DNA from: a virus
Direction: 5' to 3' (one strand)
IMG/VR virus record: IMGVR_UViG_3300037200_000158
Span: 64,001 to 94,480 of that record
Length of the DNA stretch: 30,480 nucleotides
Of this stretch, positions 2,410 to 20,465 are shown piece by piece; the first letter of the stretch is position 1; each line of letters starts with the position of its first letter. The notes beneath the pieces were generated by a model. That model was not told the DNA's origin, ran no database searches, and saw nothing but the letters and a program-made list of their open reading frames with translations. The translations under genes were made by a program, and so were the position numbers.

Positions 2410-3207
2410 GTGACGTGGATTAAAGACCAAAACGGAAACCGCGCATCGGTTGAGCGGTGGGGATCGGAAGAAGCGGCGCGGGCATCGCTGGCCACCCTCG
2501 AAGATTGCTCCGGTTGCTCCGATTGCTCCGGTTGCTCCGGTTGCTCCGATTGCTCCGGTTGCTCCGATTGCTCCGGTTGCTCCGGTTGCTCCGATTGCTC
2601 CGGTTGCTACGATTGCTCCGATTGCTCCGGTTGCTACGATTGCTCCGATTGCTCCCGTTGCTCCGATTGCTCCCGTTGCTCCCGTTGCTACGATTGCTCC
2701 GATTGCTCCGGTTGCTACGATTGCTCCGATTGCTCCCGTTGCTCCGATTGCTCCCGTTGCTCCGATTGCTCCGGTTGCTCCGATTGCTCCCGTTGCTCCG
2801 ATTGCTCCCGTTGCTCCGGTTGCTCCGGTTGCTCCGGTTGCTCCGGTTGCTCCGATTGCTCCGGCCTGAAGAGCGCCTCGCCGCAAAGTGGCCCGCTGGG
2901 AGCACCGCCGATTCCGCGCATTGACAAGATCCACAGTGCGATCTACGCTGCCGTTAGTCAACCGGACGCACTGAACATGGGCGCATTCCATACCTGCGAG
3001 ACAACGCACTGCCGCGCAGGCTGGGCGATTCAGTTGGCAGGCGACGCCGGCAAGGCGCTGGAAGCGTTCCACAACTCAGAACTGGCCGCAATGCTGATCT
3101 ATGAAGCCAGCGGTTACCCGATCAACCCTGCGCGATTCTACGACGGCGATGCGGCGGCACTGGCGGATATGAAGCGCCTTGCGGAGGCTGAAGTAATCGC
3201 GAGTTGA
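2410..3207 (+). CDS. Cys-Ser-X tripeptide repeat protein
   Basis: A GTG start follows a perfect AAGGAGG site with 7-base spacing. The N-terminus ([19 protein letters not shown], about 30 residues) leads into 40 uninterrupted Cys-Ser/Tyr-Gly/Asp/Arg triplets at residues 33-152. A separate C-terminal domain of about 105 residues follows ([35 protein letters not shown]), of a type I recall from phage and proteobacterial hypothetical proteins. Forty regularly spaced cysteines suggest a metal-loaded or disulfide-linked solenoid. Function unknown. The repeat is open in all six frames, but only this frame has a ribosome site and conserved-looking flanking domains. Confidence 0.85.
2506..2865 (+). 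repeat. 9-bp tandem repeat, 40 units, coding
   Basis: Forty head-to-tail copies of TGC-TCC/TAC-GGT/GAT/CGT encode the Cys-Ser/Tyr-X array. All units are 9 bp without indels, and variation is confined to a few single-base positions. Higher-order patterns (for example a block ending in GGT-TAC-GAT) recur, which points to unequal exchange or slippage. The last unit differs at a synonymous base (GGC). Confidence 0.97.
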
Positions 3208-3369
3208 CGCGGCAGGCGTCGTGCTCCGTGGCGCTAACACTGGGGGATTGCTGGACCAGAGTACACGGTTTGTAAACCTGCAAGTCCACCGCGCAAGCGG
3301 CCTTTCACCGTGTGTCCCGAGCGGAGGGCGATTCGGGAGTGAGTTTCGTAAAAGGAGCGAACGGTAAAG
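3208..3369 (+). promoter_or_regulatory. structured leader before the RyR-NAD operon
   Basis: This is the only sizeable gap in the early operon. It contains several potential RNA helices: TGGAC 3252-3256 with GTCCA 3284-3288; an inner GGTT/AACC hairpin at 3267-3278; CCGC-GCAA-GCGG at 3289-3300, a GNRA-capped hairpin; ACACGG 3263-3268 with CCGTGT 3308-3313, which competes with the inner hairpin; and TCCCGA 3315-3320 with TCGGGA 3333-3338. Mutually exclusive helices upstream of nucleotide metabolism genes suggest a riboswitch or attenuator, but I cannot match it to a known class. Confidence 0.4.
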
Positions 3370-3723
3370 ATGAATATCGAACAGGTGGCGCGTATTTGCC
3401 ACGCAGCGAATCTGGAGTTCTGCGAGAGCATTGGCGATTCCAGTCAGAAGCCGTGGGATCAGGCGGAGCCATGGCAGCGCGAATCAGCCGTCAAGGGCGT
3501 GAAATTCAAACTCGACAATCCGCTAGCAGCGCCGTCGGCACAGCATGACGCGTGGTGCGCGGATAAGATTGCGGGCGGCTGGGTCTTCGGTAAGGTCAAG
3601 GATGCAACGGCGAAGACGCACCCCTGCCTCGTTCCATACGACCAACTCCCGCTCGATCAGCGCATTAAGGATTTCCTCTTCGTCGGCATCGTCGAAGCGT
3701 TCCGAAAGGCCGAAGCGGAATGA
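3370..3723 (+). CDS. RyR-domain protein
   Basis: The 117-residue product matches the phage-type ryanodine-receptor repeat (RyR, Pfam PF02026) proteins: an N-terminal helical part (IEQVARICHAANLEFCES), then W-x-A-E-P-WQRESAV, the HDAWCADKIAGGWVFG segment, THPCLVPYDQLP, and a final helix. In eukaryotic channels this repeat is a structural and modulatory domain. In bacteria and phages its ligand is not established to my knowledge. The stop overlaps the start of the NAMPT-like gene by ATGA, so the two are translationally coupled. This raises the possibility that it senses a nicotinamide- or ADP-ribose-type ligand, which is inference. Confidence 0.85.
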   Translation: MNIEQVARICHAANLEFCESIGDSSQKPWDQAEPWQRESAVKGVKFKLDNPLAAPSAQHDAWCADKIAGGWVFGKVKDATAKTHPCLVPYDQLPLDQRIKDFLFVGIVEAFRKAEAE

Positions 3724-5213
3724 TAAACCCGATGCTGTTGGCAGACTTCTACAAGGTCGGCCATGAGGCGCAGTACCCGAAAGACGTAACGCAAATATGG
3801 TCCAACTGGACGCCACGGTCGAGTCGCGTGCCCGGCCAGAGTACCGTCGTCCACTTCGGTCTTCAGTACTTCATCAAGGACTACCTGATGCGGCGCTTTC
3901 AGCATGGATTCTTCGCGCGGCCGCTGGGCTTAGTACTTCAGGAGTACGGGCGGGTCGTGGCAACCTGCCTCGGCGTAGACAATCCACGGATCGATCATAT
4001 TGCCTGGCTTCACAGCCTCGGCTATCTCCCGGTCGACATCTATTCAATCCCCGAGGGCTATTCAACACCATTGGGAGTGCCGTCGCTCGTCATCACGAAC
4101 ACACTCCCAGAAGCGTTCTGGCTGCCGAACTACTTCGAGACGATGCTCAGCATGTGCCTATGGAAGCCGTCAACCTCGGCTACAACCGCCCAGCGTTTCC
4201 GCAAGATTGGAATGAAGTGGGCGAAGGCGGCGGGCGAAACCGACTTCGGCTTCGTGGACTGGCAGTTCCACGACTTCTCGATGCGTGGCATGTCCGGCCT
4301 TGAGGACGCGATCCTGAGCGGTATGGGGCACCTGACGAGCTTCAGCGGCACCGATACAATTCCGGCCATCGTCGCGGCGCGTGAGTTCTACGGGGCGAGT
4401 CTGGCATGCGGTGGCAGCGTCCCGGCCACAGAGCATTCGGTCATGTGCGCCGGCGGCAAGGACGGTGAGTTCGAGACATTCCGGCATCTGATTGAGGACG
4501 TGTACCCGAGCGGCGTTCTGTCGATCGTGAGCGACACATGGGACTTGTGGAAGGTGCTGACGGACTACATTCCCCGCCTGAAGGACGTGATCCTTGCGCG
4601 CAAAGGCAAGATTGTCATCCGGCCCGACAGCGGCGATCCGGTCAAGATCATCCTGGGCGATGACGAAGACGGACTGCGTGATATTCTCCGCGCGGACGAA
4701 CTGAAACCGCTGAACATCGGCGTCATTGATCTGCTCGCCAAGGCGCTGGGCACGACCGGCGGCATGATAAACAACGCTGCCGCTATCTACGGCGACTCGA
4801 TCAACGAAGAACGCGCTGAAGCCATCCTGAAGGGTCTCGTTCAGCGCGGCTACTCGCCATATAACGAGGTGTTCGGGATAGGCAGTTTCACTTACGAATG
4901 GCGGACGCGCGACACCTACGGATTCGCCATGAAGGCTACTGCTGTTCGACGTAGCGGCACGGTCTGCGACATCTTCAAGGACCCGGTGACTGACACTGCG
5001 GACACCCCGAAGAAGTCCCACAAGGGCATTCCCGCCGTCTATCGCACTGAGATGTCGACGGAGGACAATCCTGAGTACTTCGTGAAGGAAGGAGCGAAGC
5101 CGGAGGACCTTGACAACTGTGCGTTCGAGAAGGTCTACAGCAACGGGCGCCTGCTGATCGACACTAACTTTGACACGATCCGGCGGAGGGTTCGGGCATG
5201 GGAGCGCGTGTGA
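3720..5213 (+). CDS. nadV: nicotinamide phosphoribosyltransferase family (NAMPT/NadV or Namat)
   Basis: NAMPT joins nicotinamide to PRPP to make NMN; the phage relative Namat joins nicotinamide to ADP-ribose-pyrophosphate, giving NAD+ directly. The 497-residue length is normal. Hallmarks are FYKVGHEAQYP at the N-terminus, FHDFSMRGMSG, FSGTDTIPAI, the PATEHSVM motif with the active-site histidine, SIVSDTWDLWKVL, and the phosphate-binding IVIRPDSGDP. It overlaps the RyR gene by 4 bases and the PRPP-synthetase-like gene by 1-16 bases. The pairing with a Prs-like gene and no NMN adenylyltransferase favours the NARP1 interpretation over simple NMN synthesis. Family assignment is firm; exact substrate is not decided by sequence. 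Confidence 0.96.
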   Translation: MINPMLLADFYKVGHEAQYPKDVTQIWSNWTPRSSRVPGQSTVVHFGLQYFIKDYLMRRFQHGFFARPLGLVLQEYGRVVATCLGVDNPRIDHIAWLHSLGYLPVDIYSIPEGYSTPLGVPSLVITNTLPEAFWLPNYFETMLSMCLWKPSTSATTAQRFRKIGMKWAKAAGETDFGFVDWQFHDFSMRGMSGLEDAILSGMGHLTSFSGTDTIPAIVAAREFYGASLACGGSVPATEHSVMCAGGKDGEFETFRHLIEDVYPSGVLSIVSDTWDLWKVLTDYIPRLKDVILARKGKIVIRPDSGDPVKIILGDDEDGLRDILRADELKPLNIGVIDLLAKALGTTGGMINNAAAIYGDSINEERAEAILKGLVQRGYSPYNEVFGIGSFTYEWRTRDTYGFAMKATAVRRSGTVCDIFKDPVTDTADTPKKSHKGIPAVYRTEMSTEDNPEYFVKEGAKPEDLDNCAFEKVYSNGRLLIDTNFDTIRRRVRAWERV

Positions 5214-6079
5214 TGTTCAAGTCGTGCCTGAATATCACCTTGCGCGATGACTCGCCATCGTACGAGTGCTTCGGTTATCCTGGCGGGGAGTGGCAGGTCC
5301 GGCTGAAGGGTCCGGTGACCGCAGATCACGTTCGCGTGATAGCGCGCCTCCAAAACGCCGCCGACATCCTCAAGCTCGCGCTGCTGAAGAATGCTATCGG
5401 CAACAAGCCGTATACGGAACTCATCCTCCCGTACCTCCCATATTCGCGGGCCGACCGAGCCTTCGTCCCGAATGACTGCGTGGGCCTCGACGCCTTCGGA
5501 AGCGTCATTAATTCCATGGCGTGGGACGCGGTAGTCACCCTCGACGCACACAACCACATCGCGGCGGTGACCTACATCGCGGCGCTTCTTGACGTGCCGG
5601 CTGATCTTTTCATTCAGCGCGCAATAGTTGAGTTCGCCCACAAGCATCAAGCGAAAAGGATCACCGTGCTCTTCCCTGACGAGGGCGCGCGGCTGCGCTA
5701 CTACGTTCTACCGCCGATCATCGGTTCCAATCTGGAGATTATCGAACTGGACGTGAAGCAATGCGAGAAGGTGCGCAACCCGGCAGACGGAAAGTTATTG
5801 TACTTCGACCTGCCGCCGCTCGACAACTCGCAGCCAGCCATCATCGTTGACGACATCTGCGACGGTGGCGGAACGTTCGTCGGCATCGCGCAGAAGGCCG
5901 GTGTCCTCAACCTTGGGCTTTACGTCACCCATGGCATCTTCAGTAGAAGCCTTGAGGTTCTGTTCTCCTACTTCGATCACATTTACACGACCGATAGTTT
6001 CCGCACGGACTATCCGGCCTATCCAAACCTGACGGTTATGACCGCCGTCGAGGAAATCCTCCGCCAGAGCAAATCATGA
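5198..6079 (+). CDS. prs: ribose-phosphate pyrophosphokinase-like (Prs/Adps)
   Basis: The protein resembles PRPP synthetase, which moves pyrophosphate from ATP to ribose-5-phosphate. Visible are the flexible-loop motif LPYLPYSRADR, a TLDAHN segment matching the metal-binding region, the PRPP-binding loop IIVDDICDGGGTF, and YVTHGIFS. At 293 residues it is slightly shorter than housekeeping Prs. The Adps enzyme of phage NARP1 is a Prs homologue that instead makes ADP-ribose-pyrophosphate for a NAMPT-like partner, and this gene lies directly after such a partner. Two starts are possible: ATG 5198 (GGAGGG upstream) or ATG 5213, overlapping the preceding TGA. Confidence 0.93.
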   Translation: MGARVMFKSCLNITLRDDSPSYECFGYPGGEWQVRLKGPVTADHVRVIARLQNAADILKLALLKNAIGNKPYTELILPYLPYSRADRAFVPNDCVGLDAFGSVINSMAWDAVVTLDAHNHIAAVTYIAALLDVPADLFIQRAIVEFAHKHQAKRITVLFPDEGARLRYYVLPPIIGSNLEIIELDVKQCEKVRNPADGKLLYFDLPPLDNSQPAIIVDDICDGGGTFVGIAQKAGVLNLGLYVTHGIFSRSLEVLFSYFDHIYTTDSFRTDYPAYPNLTVMTAVEEILRQSKS

Positions 6080-6960
6080 GAAGAGACGAAACGATCACCG
6101 AGCAATTGCGCTATAAATTCACGCCGGACGAGCATCTCGTTAACTGCGAGCAACTCGCCGCGAAACTGGACCACCAGTCGGAACTGGAGGTCGACCACAA
6201 GGCGATCAAAACGAACCTGAAGGAGCGCGAGGATAAGGTCGCCGCCGAAATCGGCAAACTTACCCGCCAGGTACGCGACAAGTTCGAGCTCCGCGATGTT
6301 CAGTGCCGCTGGGACTACGGTCGCCCGACCGGCGAGCAGAAGACCCTTATCCGCCTCGACACGAACGAGGATGTCCGCGTGGAGCGCATGCTCGACCACG
6401 AACGGCAGGAAGTGCTGAAGTTCGAGATGCCGTCGCATGTGCTCAGCGGGCCGGGCTCGTTCAAAGATATGCGCGTTGTCGACATGGAGCAGAGCGATGT
6501 CGATTACCTGTCGAACCGCGATGAGTCCGACCTGTCGAAGTTCGGCTGGATTGAAGCGGACATCCAGGCGGTATTCGCAGAAGCCCGGCGCCGGGGCGAC
6601 GAAGCGGCTGCTAAGGGTCCGGTCCTTGTGCCGGACCAGACATCCAGCACCGAAGCGGTGGCCGAGCAGAGCCTTGCGGTTCACGAAAGCGGCCTGCAGT
6701 TCGTTGGCGAAGCTGTAATAGCGGAAGAACCCGCAGCAGCGGCAGCGGAGCCGGAAGCGCCGCATACTCTCGGTAGTGCCCGCGAGATCGACGGCGGTAC
6801 CCATGCTGAGGCCGGCGCGAAACAGCGCGGGCGCCGCGGCAGCAAGGTAACAAGCATCGCTCCGCTGTCCGAGGAAGAACGCGCACACCTCGAGGCCGTC
6901 CAGCAACAGCAGGAAGAAGAATTCGGCGAGGCGGCGCGAAACGAAGCGCCGGAACTGTAG
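6076..6960 (+). CDS. conserved phage protein with helical N-terminus
   Basis: The first 130 residues resemble a family of phage hypothetical proteins: a helical region of about 60 residues (AAKLDHQSELEVDHKAIKTN), then RDVQCRWDYGRPTGEQKT and IRLDTNEDVRVERM. The rest is Ala/Glu-rich, low complexity, with a basic patch (KQRGRRGSK) and a Gln/Glu-rich end. The start overlaps the Prs-like stop (ATGA). It ends with TAG, rare in this window, which overlaps the GTG of the next gene. Function unknown. Confidence 0.8.
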   Translation: MRRDETITEQLRYKFTPDEHLVNCEQLAAKLDHQSELEVDHKAIKTNLKEREDKVAAEIGKLTRQVRDKFELRDVQCRWDYGRPTGEQKTLIRLDTNEDVRVERMLDHERQEVLKFEMPSHVLSGPGSFKDMRVVDMEQSDVDYLSNRDESDLSKFGWIEADIQAVFAEARRRGDEAAAKGPVLVPDQTSSTEAVAEQSLAVHESGLQFVGEAVIAEEPAAAAAEPEAPHTLGSAREIDGGTHAEAGAKQRGRRGSKVTSIAPLSEEERAHLEAVQQQQEEEFGEAARNEAPEL

Positions 6961-7357: not shown

Positions 7358-7750
7358 ATGAGCCGCTTCATGCGAGTCGCCCGCGGGCGCGTTCGCAAGG
7401 CCGGGGACGCGAACAAGACGGAGGTCCGATATGGCGAGCACCTCGAGAAGCGGCGGCTCGACGGTGAGGTTCTCTGGTATAAATTCGAGGGGTTGAAGAT
7501 GCGGCTTGCCGACGGCACCTTCTACACTTCGGACTATGCCGTCATGGTTGCGGATGGATCGCTGGAGATTCACGAGGTTAAGGCCGGTCGCGTTGACAAG
7601 CTCACCGGCAGAGTCGTCATGCTGTCGGAGGACACTTCCAAGGTGAAAATCAAGATCGCGGCGGAGATGTACCCGTTTCGCTTCATCTGGGCGATCGAAG
7701 TTCCAAAGAAGATCGGCGGCGGATTTCAGTTCCAGATCGTTGGGGAGTGA
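7358..7750 (+). CDS. DUF1064 phage nuclease-like protein
   Basis: This 130-residue protein matches DUF1064, a phage family with a probable PD-(D/E)XK nuclease fold. Key signature: NKTEVRYGEHLEKRRLDGEV, then FRLADGTFYTSDY-type strand (here MRLADGTFYTSDYAVM), LEIHEVKAG, and KIKIAAEMYPFRF. The Asp of SDY and the Glu and Lys of EVK are the expected metal-site residues. It may act in recombination or as a Holliday-junction-type nuclease alongside RecT; this role is inferred. The gene follows a 32-base gap containing GGAGGAAG. Confidence 0.8.
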   Translation: MSRFMRVARGRVRKAGDANKTEVRYGEHLEKRRLDGEVLWYKFEGLKMRLADGTFYTSDYAVMVADGSLEIHEVKAGRVDKLTGRVVMLSEDTSKVKIKIAAEMYPFRFIWAIEVPKKIGGGFQFQIVGE

Positions 7751-7757
7751 CGCCTAT

Positions 7758-8564
7758 ATGGGAGAAAACACGGCCATAAGTTGGTGTACGCACACATTTA
7801 ACGCCTGGTGGGGTTGCACTCGGGTCGACGGTGACCCTGCGTGCGGCCCGACAGAAGAATTCCCCGACGGCGCGGTGTGTTATGCGGAGACGTGGGCGGA
7901 TCGCACCGGCTTCGGTCCAAACCCAGCGAGCGCCGACAAGTTCCCGATCTGGGGTGCGCATGAGCGACGCCGGTTCTTCGGAGACAAGCACTGGAACGAA
8001 CCCCTGCGCTGGAACCTAGCAGCCGAGAAGACAGGCATCCGCGCCAGAGTTTTCTGCATGTCGATGGGAGACTGGGCAGAGGGACGGCCCGATTACGCGC
8101 CCTACCTGGTCCGGCTCTGGGATCGGATCGAACGTACGCCGTGGCTGGACTGGCTCATGCTCACGAAGCGGCCACAGTTGATATCGAAGTTGTGCCCGTT
8201 GCGGTTGCCGCGAATCTGGCAGGGGACCACGGCGGTTACCCAGAAGTGGCTCGATCTCCGGTGGCCGCTGTTGCGTGCTCATGGCGCTGAAATCAACTGG
8301 CTCAGTATCGAGCCACAGATGGAGCGGATTGTATTGCCCGACGACTTCCTTGGGCTAGGGCCGCGCGGCTGGGTGATCTGCGGTGGCCAGTCGGGCGCGC
8401 GGACGCGCTATCTTGATCCGGCGTGGGCCCGGCTGCTTCGGGACCAATGCGCAGAAGCCGGTGTCGCTTTTCACATGAAGCAGATGAGTGGGAGGACGAA
8501 GGCGGAACTGGAAGGCATCCCGCTGGATCTCCGCATCCGTCAATTCCCCGAGGTACGCCCGTGA
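7758..8564 (+). CDS. DUF5131 family (phage gp37/gp68-like)
   Basis: The product begins MGENTAISWCTHTFNAWWGC, the conserved opening of DUF5131 proteins, continues with VCYAETWAD, and contains FCMSMGDWAEG, WLMLTKRPQ, WLSIEPQME and WVICGGQSGARTR. These proteins have a radical-SAM-like barrel outline with N-terminal cysteines; the biochemical activity is not known to me. Compared with typical members there is a short insertion between the first and last N-terminal cysteines. I place the start at ATG 7758 because family members start at this point; a TTG at 7740 is also in frame. The stop overlaps the next GTG. Confidence 0.9.
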   Translation: MGENTAISWCTHTFNAWWGCTRVDGDPACGPTEEFPDGAVCYAETWADRTGFGPNPASADKFPIWGAHERRRFFGDKHWNEPLRWNLAAEKTGIRARVFCMSMGDWAEGRPDYAPYLVRLWDRIERTPWLDWLMLTKRPQLISKLCPLRLPRIWQGTTAVTQKWLDLRWPLLRAHGAEINWLSIEPQMERIVLPDDFLGLGPRGWVICGGQSGARTRYLDPAWARLLRDQCAEAGVAFHMKQMSGRTKAELEGIPLDLRIRQFPEVRP

Positions 8565-12823: not shown

Positions 12824-13960
12824 ATGATGCGAACCTTTCAGTTCCGATTGCAGCCTAACGCAGCGCAAACCGCGATGCTTGAACGAATCCTCGCTGACAA
12901 TTGCGAAACGGCAAACGCCTGTATTCAGGAGCGCCGCGAGGCGTGGAAACTTCAGCGGAAATCGATCACCTATTACGACCAACAAAAGGAACTGACTGAG
13001 CTTCGTAAAGACCCGATGTTCAACTGGATCGCCTGCGATATCCAGCGTGATCCATTGCGAAGAGTAGACCGTGCATTCAAGGCGTTCTTCCGGCGCTGTA
13101 AAACCGGCGAGAAGGCAGGCTTCCCGCGTTTCCGCTCACGTCATCGCTACGATTCGTTCACGTTCAGTATGCCTGTTTGTCGCGATAAATCGATCAAAAT
13201 CCCGAACGTAGGAGATATCCGTGCTCGTGGAGGACGGAAGATCGAGGGGCGTGTAAAGGTATGCTCCATAAAGCGAGAAGGGAAACGATGGTCCGCTTCT
13301 GTTTGCTGTGATATTGGGCCTGCACCTGAAAAAGTTACAGTCTCGAAACCAGTGGGTATCGATGTGGGGCTAACGACGCTCGCTACGCTTTCGGATGGCA
13401 CGGAGATCGCCAATCCGCGATGGACTCACCGGCATGAATATCGGATTGCGGCTGCGAGCCGGGCACTGGCCACAAAGAAGCGCGGATCTAAGAATCGGCT
13501 GAAGGCCAGAGAGTCTCTTCGGCGTGCGCATCAGCGTGCTGCGAATGCCCGCAAAAACTACATCCACCACGTCTCTAAATGGCTCGTAGAGAATTACGAT
13601 CTGATCGCATATGAGGATCTGAAGATAAAGAATATGGTTCGGTCGAACCTTGCAAAATCGATCATGGATGCCGCATGGGGTCTGCTGATTTGGTGTGTGT
13701 CGTACAAGGCGGAAGGTGCCGGTCGATACGCGATAGCAGTGAACCCGTGGGGTACATCTCAGAAGTGTTCAGGTTGCGGAGCGGTTGTCAAAAAGAAACT
13801 CAGCGAGCGGACGCATTCGTGCCCGTGTGGATTAGTTCTGGGACGTGACCACAACGCAGGCCGCAATATCGAACACTTAGCACTGTCCTCGCTCGGGATG
13901 AGCGATGTCGTTTTTCAGGCAGAATCTATGCAGATTTCCACGGGGAGGTTATGTATATAA
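12824..13960 (+). CDS. tnpB: TnpB RNA-guided endonuclease (IS605 OrfB)
   Basis: TnpB is the RuvC-type RNA-guided nuclease of IS200/IS605 elements and the ancestor of Cas12. The 378-residue protein has the N-terminal OrfB domain (FQFRLQPNAAQTAMLERIL). The catalytic triad is complete: D180 in GIDVGLTTLATL, E264 in IAYEDLKIKN and D342 in GRDHNAGRNI. A zinc finger uses C315, C318, C333 and C335. The right-end palindrome lies inside the last codons, and the stop overlaps the next gene by 10 bases. The guide RNA would be expected to come from this 3' end. Confidence 0.95.
   Translation: MMRTFQFRLQPNAAQTAMLERILADNCETANACIQERREAWKLQRKSITYYDQQKELTELRKDPMFNWIACDIQRDPLRRVDRAFKAFFRRCKTGEKAGFPRFRSRHRYDSFTFSMPVCRDKSIKIPNVGDIRARGGRKIEGRVKVCSIKREGKRWSASVCCDIGPAPEKVTVSKPVGIDVGLTTLATLSDGTEIANPRWTHRHEYRIAAASRALATKKRGSKNRLKARESLRRAHQRAANARKNYIHHVSKWLVENYDLIAYEDLKIKNMVRSNLAKSIMDAAWGLLIWCVSYKAEGAGRYAIAVNPWGTSQKCSGCGAVVKKKLSERTHSCPCGLVLGRDHNAGRNIEHLALSSLGMSDVVFQAESMQISTGRLCI
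13923..13936. repeat. right-end palindrome of tnpB element
   Basis: AATCT-ATGC-AGATT forms a 5-bp hairpin with a 4-base loop inside the tnpB 3' end. Its core matches that of the left palindrome apart from one extra base. Confidence 0.55.
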
Positions 13961-19292: not shown

Positions 19293-19327
19293 ATTGATAT
19301 TATGCTTGAGGCAGGCGCCATAGTAAA

Positions 19328-19372
19328 GTACTGGCATAGATTTATTTTCGTACCAGTACATTGTGATATACT
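19328..19372 (+). promoter_or_regulatory. promoter and palindrome for the P63C gene
   Basis: TGATATACT (19364-19372) is an extended -10 (TGn plus TATACT), ending 10 bases before ATG 19383, so the transcript would be nearly leaderless. GTACTGG (19328-19334) and CCAGTAC (19353-19359) flank the -35 region and may be an operator. Confidence 0.5.
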
Positions 19373-19382
19373 CGCATACCTT

Positions 19383-20465
19383 ATGGCAACTTTAGATGAC
19401 GCACCGGTAGATGGGCGCCGCCGCTCAGGGCAGGCCAGAATGGAGCAACTGACCAAGGAGGAACGCACAGAACTCGCAAAAAAGGCCGCAAGGGGGCGGT
19501 GGCAGATGAATGAAGAAAACGCAGAAGTCTATGAAGCGTTCCGAAGCGCCGATCTTGAAATCGCGGACCAACTTGTACCTTGCGCGGTGCTGATGGTGAA
19601 CGGTGAACCGGTCCGAGTGGTCTCCGAACGTGGCCTTGTTAAATCCTTTGGTGGTAAACGCGGTGGCGCCCATTGGCGCCGCATGAAGAAGGATTCGGAG
19701 AATACCGACCTTCCCGTCATCATCTCAGCGCTCAACCTGCGCCCATATATCAGCCAGGACTTACGGGACATGCTCGGCACCAGATATCCGTACAAAGGCG
19801 CTGGGGCCGGAGCATCAGCAGCGGGGATACGCGTCGAAGCGTATCCAATGATATGCGATGTGCTTTTGAAGGCAAGGGATGCGAACGCCCTCATTGGTAA
19901 AGGCCAGGAGGAAATAGCGAAGTCTGCCGATATCCTCATGCGCGGGCTGGCGCACACTGGGATTATTGCACTGGTCGATGAGGCAACCGGGTTCCAGATT
20001 CACCGGCCCTCGGACGCGCTGGCCAGAATTCTCGGAGCGTTCATCGCTAAGGAGCTCCAGCCGTACGTTCCCACGTTTCCGCAGGAATTCTACGAGGAAC
20101 TTTTTCGGTTGCGCCATCTGGATTACCGGAAGGATTCAGTCCAGCGCCCGCAGTATTTCGGGATGCTCACGAATGACATCGTGTACAAGCGGCTGGCGCC
20201 TGGCGTACTTGAAGAACTTCGGCGCGTGACCGCTCGAAACGAGAGCGGTAGACCGAAACATAAACTGTTCCAGAGGTTGACCGCGAACCGTGGATACCCC
20301 AAACTTATCTACCATCTCGGTCAAGTGGTCGCGACCATGAAGTCGAGTTCAGAGTATAAGGAGTTCATCCGAAAGTTGGATCAAATCCGCCCGCGTTACG
20401 GGCAGACGATGCAACTCCCATTTCCTGATTACGAAGAAGGAAACGATACCGGATCAGGTCTTTGA
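19383..20465 (+). CDS. P63C-domain protein, element cargo
   Basis: The product contains the P63C domain found in phage and bacterial proteins: LAHTGIIALVDEATGFQ, LQPYVPTFPQEFYEELFRLR, RPQYFGMLTNDIVYKRLAPG, ARNESGRPKHKLFQRL and YPKLIYHLGQVV. Its molecular function is not established. The N-terminal motif LTKEERTELAKKAARGRW is shared with the convergent small gene at 20454. I start at ATG 19383 because an extended -10 lies just upstream; ATG 19302 is in frame but lies before the promoter. The 360 residues look complete. Confidence 0.85.
   Translation: MATLDDAPVDGRRRSGQARMEQLTKEERTELAKKAARGRWQMNEENAEVYEAFRSADLEIADQLVPCAVLMVNGEPVRVVSERGLVKSFGGKRGGAHWRRMKKDSENTDLPVIISALNLRPYISQDLRDMLGTRYPYKGAGAGASAAGIRVEAYPMICDVLLKARDANALIGKGQEEIAKSADILMRGLAHTGIIALVDEATGFQIHRPSDALARILGAFIAKELQPYVPTFPQEFYEELFRLRHLDYRKDSVQRPQYFGMLTNDIVYKRLAPGVLEELRRVTARNESGRPKHKLFQRLTANRGYPKLIYHLGQVVATMKSSSEYKEFIRKLDQIRPRYGQTMQLPFPDYEEGNDTGSGL

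Follow-up and report, generated by a model that had tools for sequence, protein, structure and literature searches.

Why should a phage keep the gene for a small RyR-domain protein in one overlapping cluster with genes for a NAMPT-family and a Prs-family enzyme? The question is raised by a stretch of 30,480 bases, referred to below as the window, which corresponds to positions 64001-94480 within a 94,480-base virus record and was selected for the RyR-NARP1 adjacency itself. For one mycobacteriophage, an answer exists. According to the available text of a May 2026 preprint (PMC13232231), RyDEP is encoded inside the NARP1 operon of DyoEdafos and hydrolyses the Thoeris signals 2'cADPR and 3'cADPR to ADP-ribose; together, DyoEdafos Adps, RyDEP and Namat convert 2'cADPR to NAD+, and an anti-Thoeris role is described for RyR-domain phage proteins. 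The function of the NARP1 pair and its link with an RyR-domain protein in a single phage are already published. Literature searches found nothing on the RyR-NARP1 arrangement of the window or on that of Salmonella phage Mansal (see below), and the words ‘Salmonella’ and ‘Kuttervirus’ are absent from the main text of PMC13232231.

In the window, four open reading frames (ORFs) follow each other on one strand with overlaps of a few bases, coding for the RyR-domain protein, the NAMPT-family protein, the Prs-family protein and a 294-aa product (6076-6960). The features of interest are:

3354..3357, + strand: GGAG, Shine-Dalgarno-like, 12 nt ahead of the RyR start (read in the sequence)
3370..3723, + strand: RyR (R12)-domain protein of 117 aa, predicted to bind cADPR as a sponge or a glycosidase, from PF02026, alignment and model
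3720..5213, + strand: predicted Namat (nicotinamide ADP-ribose transferase), 497 aa, clamp motif GSFTYEWRTRD, from profiles, residues and tree
5198..6079, + strand: predicted Adps (ADP-ribose pyrophosphate synthetase), 293 aa from 5198 or 288 aa from 5213, loop DDICDGGGTF, from profiles, tree and model

As read in the sequence, the RyR stop and the Namat start share ATGA (3720-3723), the Namat stop overlaps an ATG in TGATG (5211-5215), and the Adps stop shares another ATGA (6076-6079) with the next ORF. The Prs-family gene starts at either 5198 or 5213, each preceded by a Shine-Dalgarno-like GGAG. The overlap between NAMPT-family and Prs-family genes, on which the original prediction was built, is confirmed by both ORFs and by the TGATG junction; the coupling of an RyR-domain gene to this pair, to which no function had then been assigned, is likewise borne out by the ATGA that ORF 3370-3723 shares with Namat. 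The 294-aa ORF, which overlaps the stop codon of Adps, has no match in Pfam or PHROG and may be a member of the operon. Overall and third-position GC contents of the three genes are similar to those of neighbouring genes.

Elsewhere, the window encodes a RecT-like protein, a primase-helicase and a small-terminase-like protein, so the source virus is most likely a tailed phage. Positions 8000-30480 gave no megablast match, and relatives of the helicase are distant (28% at best). Several other genes deserve mention. A 265-aa ORF (2410-3207) contains a cysteine-rich repeat (DCSGCS...), encoded by 40 copies of the 9-base unit TTGCTCCGG at 2505-2864, and has relatives in PHROGs 31265 and 15341. The phage also harbours a DUF5131 protein (7740-8564), a TnpB-like protein (12824-13960; OrfB_IS605, Cas12f1-like TNB) and a P63C-domain protein with weak anti-repressor similarity (19302-20465).

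The NAMPT-family protein is recognised by PF04095 (E 5.7e-37) together with PF18127, by phrog_448 (E 2.9e-158) and by NCBIfam NF006629 (474 bits, cut-off 405). Its top match among PDB sequences, at 437.8 bits, is SPbetaL1 Namat (9w5x/9w5w, identified as such by comparing the entry sequence with the SPbetaL1 gene), followed by 9ke8 (347.7 bits; entry name nicotinamide phosphoribosyltransferase). Scores are lower for 7yqo (202.5 bits; entry name pre-B cell enhancing factor related protein), which we take to be Xcc Nampt, and for human Nampt (about 185 bits). In the alignment, the window protein and SPbetaL1 Namat have in common the motif PATEHSVM, the histidine of which is presumably catalytic. 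The Nampt-like catalytic core is also present, with F189, D215 and R306 of SPbetaL1 corresponding to F186, D212 and R301. For the solved SPbetaL1 Namat, the available text of PMC12774641 gives 20 NAD+-contact residues, of which 18 are identical in the window protein, adenine clamp included; the exceptions are A362, replaced by S, and Y396, replaced by W. SPbetaL1 residues R40, F392, T398, R399 and D400 are all retained, R40 of the adenine-stacking clamp loop being R36 in the window. The F and W of the clamp helix GSFTYEWRTRD are its two aromatics; measured against the preference printed in the available text, the motif is atypical, with E instead of Q/N at Phi2 and R instead of N/V at Phi3. 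Both clamp aromatics are found in 175 of 189 Namat-side sequences, and in none of seven Nampt references.

The phylogeny agrees with this assignment. A split with support 100 divides 63 Namat-side rows, including the window, from seven Nampt rows, and the window protein belongs to a viral clade of 12 rows, likewise supported at 100, apart from both SPbetaL1 and DyoEdafos. As no Nampt scored above cut-off among 26 bacterial genomes, plasmid and phage Nampt genes, plus a match from record ACP17, served as outgroup. All trees were thinned for redundancy (70 rows for Namat, 72 for Adps, 54 for RyR and 90 for one further tree); loci L001, L178, L323 and L330 and fragments below 400 aa (NAMPT) or 200 aa (Prs) were left out of the NAMPT/Prs set. 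Some contigs entered twice via different scans, so counts are not of independent genomes. Three near relatives of the window Namat (L040 7509-7748, L041 7446-7730 and L043 7430-7720) have a small conserved protein (GFPERIY..., QKTAVE...) between Namat and Adps that is not found in the window. Basal within the Namat side is L176 (5917-8307), which combines an Adps-like gene with a NAMPT-family gene devoid of the clamp motif (GVGGILRNHTRD), and is possibly an intermediate.

The Prs-family protein matches phrog_619 (E 4.4e-57), whereas its score against TIGR01251 (E 7.3e-22) remains under the cut-off (77.7 vs 113 bits). Its gene adjoins Namat, and in the tree it is placed with 48 Adps-side rows (window included), separated with support 100 from 24 housekeeping Prs rows. 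The phosphate-binding loop reads DDICDGGGTF. At the loop position concerned, 146 of the 181 Adps-like sequences have G (30 unmatched by the pattern), and 26 of the 30 Prs sequences have T or S (4 unmatched). The change from T/S to G might help to accommodate the AMP moiety of ADP-ribose, and would be compatible with ADP-ribose as the predicted substrate. The model (pLDDT 91.8) adopts the Prs fold, with a Z of 25.7 and an rmsd of 2.5 over 266 residues; this fold does not tell Adps and Prs apart.

The original prediction of a NARP1-type pair had called for both proteins to be placed among Adps/Namat or housekeeping Prs/NAMPT; both fall on the NARP1 side, and in Namat the clamp residues are preserved but for a single conservative substitution. 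The absence of an NMN adenylyltransferase also held up: PF01467 has no match in the whole 94,480-base record, itself possibly a fragment, while control genomes were positive in 14 of 14 cases. An Adps-family gene lies in the same locus for 179 of 187 Namat-holding loci, a count in which loci overlap and some contigs are present twice, so the pairing is not due to chance. Taken together, both tree placements, the kept NAD+-contact residues and the absence of PF01467 support the pair well, and its assignment to NARP1 can be regarded as almost certain, with the enzyme activities predicted. SPbetaL1 NARP1 (PMC12774641) offers the same Adps/Namat combination, with a Namat 48% identical to that of the window and the clamp kept, although its order is Adps-Namat and its Adps is only 28% identical; no RyR gene was found within 6.4 kb around it. 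ICP1 NrsA/NrsB is a further probable Adps/Namat pair according to the available text of PMC11559045. A housekeeping NAMPT/Prs reading was rejected on the evidence of both trees and the clamp residues. That the pair performs ordinary salvage, making PRPP and NMN for a host NMN adenylyltransferase in a NARP2-like or housekeeping manner, is very improbable: the NCBIfam name (nicotinate phosphoribosyltransferase) and the in vitro use of PRPP by Namat (PMC12774641, available text) would suit it, but both trees, the clamp residues and the missing PF01467 oppose it. Given that in vitro activity, the window Namat may nevertheless use PRPP as well.

The third component, the RyR-domain protein, scores 44.8 bits against PF02026 (E 1.5e-11; cut-off 27.4) and 50.5 bits against PDB entry 35tm, DyoEdafos RyDEP. 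Its model (pLDDT 95.8) resembles the human RyR3 R12 domain (rmsd 3.0 over 117 residues) with a Z of 9.3, modest by the yardstick of the fold tool for a small helical fold; the top matches are RyR domains. The fold-search library ends in April 2026, so that the lack of 35tm among the matches is uninformative. In the alignment, RyDEP residues H75, W78, H100 and D117 correspond to H59, W62, H84 and D101, so the ligand residues of the RyR/R12 family are in place. It is likely that this protein acts on cADPR signals.

From the gene order, overlaps, family and clade placements, active-site residues and predicted folds, all of them shown here, we infer the activities, the cADPR binding and the role in infection: the three genes very probably constitute a counter-defence module against NAD+-consuming immunity. 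Host NADases would leave ADP-ribose, to which Adps would add pyrophosphate at the expense of ATP. Namat would then couple ADP-ribose pyrophosphate with nicotinamide, giving NAD+ in two steps that bypass NMN adenylyltransferase. The RyR-domain protein, whose gene lies just upstream and overlaps Namat, would bind the Thoeris signals 2'cADPR and 3'cADPR, and is somewhat likelier to hold the signal, as a sponge, than to hydrolyse it to ADP-ribose.

How common is this association? RyR and NARP1 occur in one locus in 6 of 318 loci, which represent four records: the window (twice, L001), DyoEdafos (twice, as L119 and L178), L149 and L194. DyoEdafos, L149 and L194 have the common order Adps-RyR-Namat and cluster together in trees. 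An RyR gene anywhere in the record was seen for 3 of 50 and 6 of 50 NARP1 records (9 of 100 in all), and is inside the operon in three, again DyoEdafos, L149 and L194. Conversely, Namat-like matches occur in two of 50 RyR records, one of which (ACP17) is Nampt-like. The linkage is rare. When 18 RyR loci of named phages were inspected, NARP1 was found nearby in two, those of DyoEdafos and Mansal. In Arthrobacter phage Lewando (L373 4995-5832), a gene for a PnuC-like nicotinamide riboside transporter, an NAD-related neighbour, is located two genes after RyR.

Compared with the DyoEdafos operon (MN234187.1; PMC13232231, available text), the window has the same three families in an overlapping operon, with the H, W, H and D positions kept. 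The order differs, being Adps-RyDEP-Namat in DyoEdafos and RyR-Namat-Adps in the window; identities are 37.5% over 88 aa for RyR, 44% for Namat and 33% for Adps, and both RyR and Namat belong to different clades. With its other gene order, other RyR lineage and other Namat clade, the link in the window is taken to have been assembled separately. Mansal (OR449012.1) also has RyR, from outside the DyoEdafos clade, directly beside NARP1, but in the order RyR-Adps-Namat (L374 4458-7957) and with about 180 additional N-terminal residues on RyR; its Namat motif is GSYTYQMNTRD and its Adps loop DDICDGGRTF. A query with this 3.5-kb block matched 154 phage records, 11 of which carry at least 80% of it; among the 60 matches listed, many have the RyR part alone or the Adps-Namat part alone. 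Klebsiella phage KpS110 has RyR (L381 4458-5330) and no NARP1 gene in the stretch examined, with flanking genes on both sides 72%, 71%, 45% and 82% identical to those of Mansal. In the KpS110/Mansal setting, RyR occurs with or without NARP1 beside it.

Another reading is that chance mosaicism of phage genomes placed RyR beside NARP1, and that the role of RyR is unrelated. RyR lies outside the NARP1 operon in six of the nine records with both, and 16 of the 18 named phage RyR loci have no NARP1 gene nearby, as mosaicism would predict. It is nonetheless improbable, considering that RyR overlaps Namat by four bases in the window, that at least three separate assemblies with differing orders can be counted, and that anti-Thoeris activity of RyR proteins has been published (PMC13232231, available text).

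An alternative of more substance concerns what the RyR-domain protein does with its ligand. Like RyDEP of DyoEdafos, it may be a true glycosidase, in which case destruction of the signal would itself supply Adps and Namat. All four RyDEP residues H75, W78, H100 and D117 are matched, the operon partners are the same, and the DyoEdafos trio does convert 2'cADPR to NAD+ (PMC13232231, available text). However, among 117 other RyR sequences, the positions of H75, W78 and H100 are kept in 117 each and that of D117 in 116. The catalytic residues are thus near-invariant across the family and cannot separate a hydrolase from a sponge; a choice between the two by catalytic dyad was tried, and was undone by this conservation. 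In the RyR tree (54 rows), DyoEdafos, L149 and L194 group together (100/99), as they do in all 200 bootstrap trees, and the window, one of the 51 other rows, falls outside this RyDEP glycosidase-type clade; the position of that clade relative to the very long branches of L376, L379 and L380 is unsure. RyDEP Q54, among the residues mutated in PMC13232231 (available text), corresponds to S39 in the window, a correspondence that depends on a one-residue alignment gap, and the position is S in 114 of the 117 other sequences. In the same text, six of eight RyR homologs tested bound and none hydrolysed, and sponge behaviour is described for H4 (Ruegeria phage) and H7 (Pectobacterium phage). RyDEP is more distant from the window protein than are the RyR proteins of Pectobacterium phage CB3 (48% over 110 aa) and Ruegeria phage V21 (41% over 113 aa); unlike the window, neither of these two phages has NARP1 near its RyR gene. 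Our guess is that V21 and CB3 are the sources of H4 and H7. Clade and one residue thus weakly favour a predicted sponge over a hydrolase, and a glycosidase in the window appears rather unlikely.

A bolder and tentative proposal is that the large non-DyoEdafos RyR lineage joined NARP1 at least twice independently, in the window phage and in Mansal with its close kin, because the trapping or cutting of Thoeris signals and the rebuilding of NAD+ cooperate; in its boldest form, the window protein would be a second, separately evolved cADPR glycosidase feeding Adps. The recurrent link makes two ideas testable, namely that a sponge benefits from NARP1, or that cADPR hydrolysis has originated repeatedly. 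For these, the value of the window lies in the clean contrast that it offers between sponge-plus-NARP1 and hydrolase-plus-NARP1. At least three assemblies, with three gene orders and two RyR lineages, indicate that the RyR-NARP1 partnership extends beyond one mycobacteriophage and is not a single accident.
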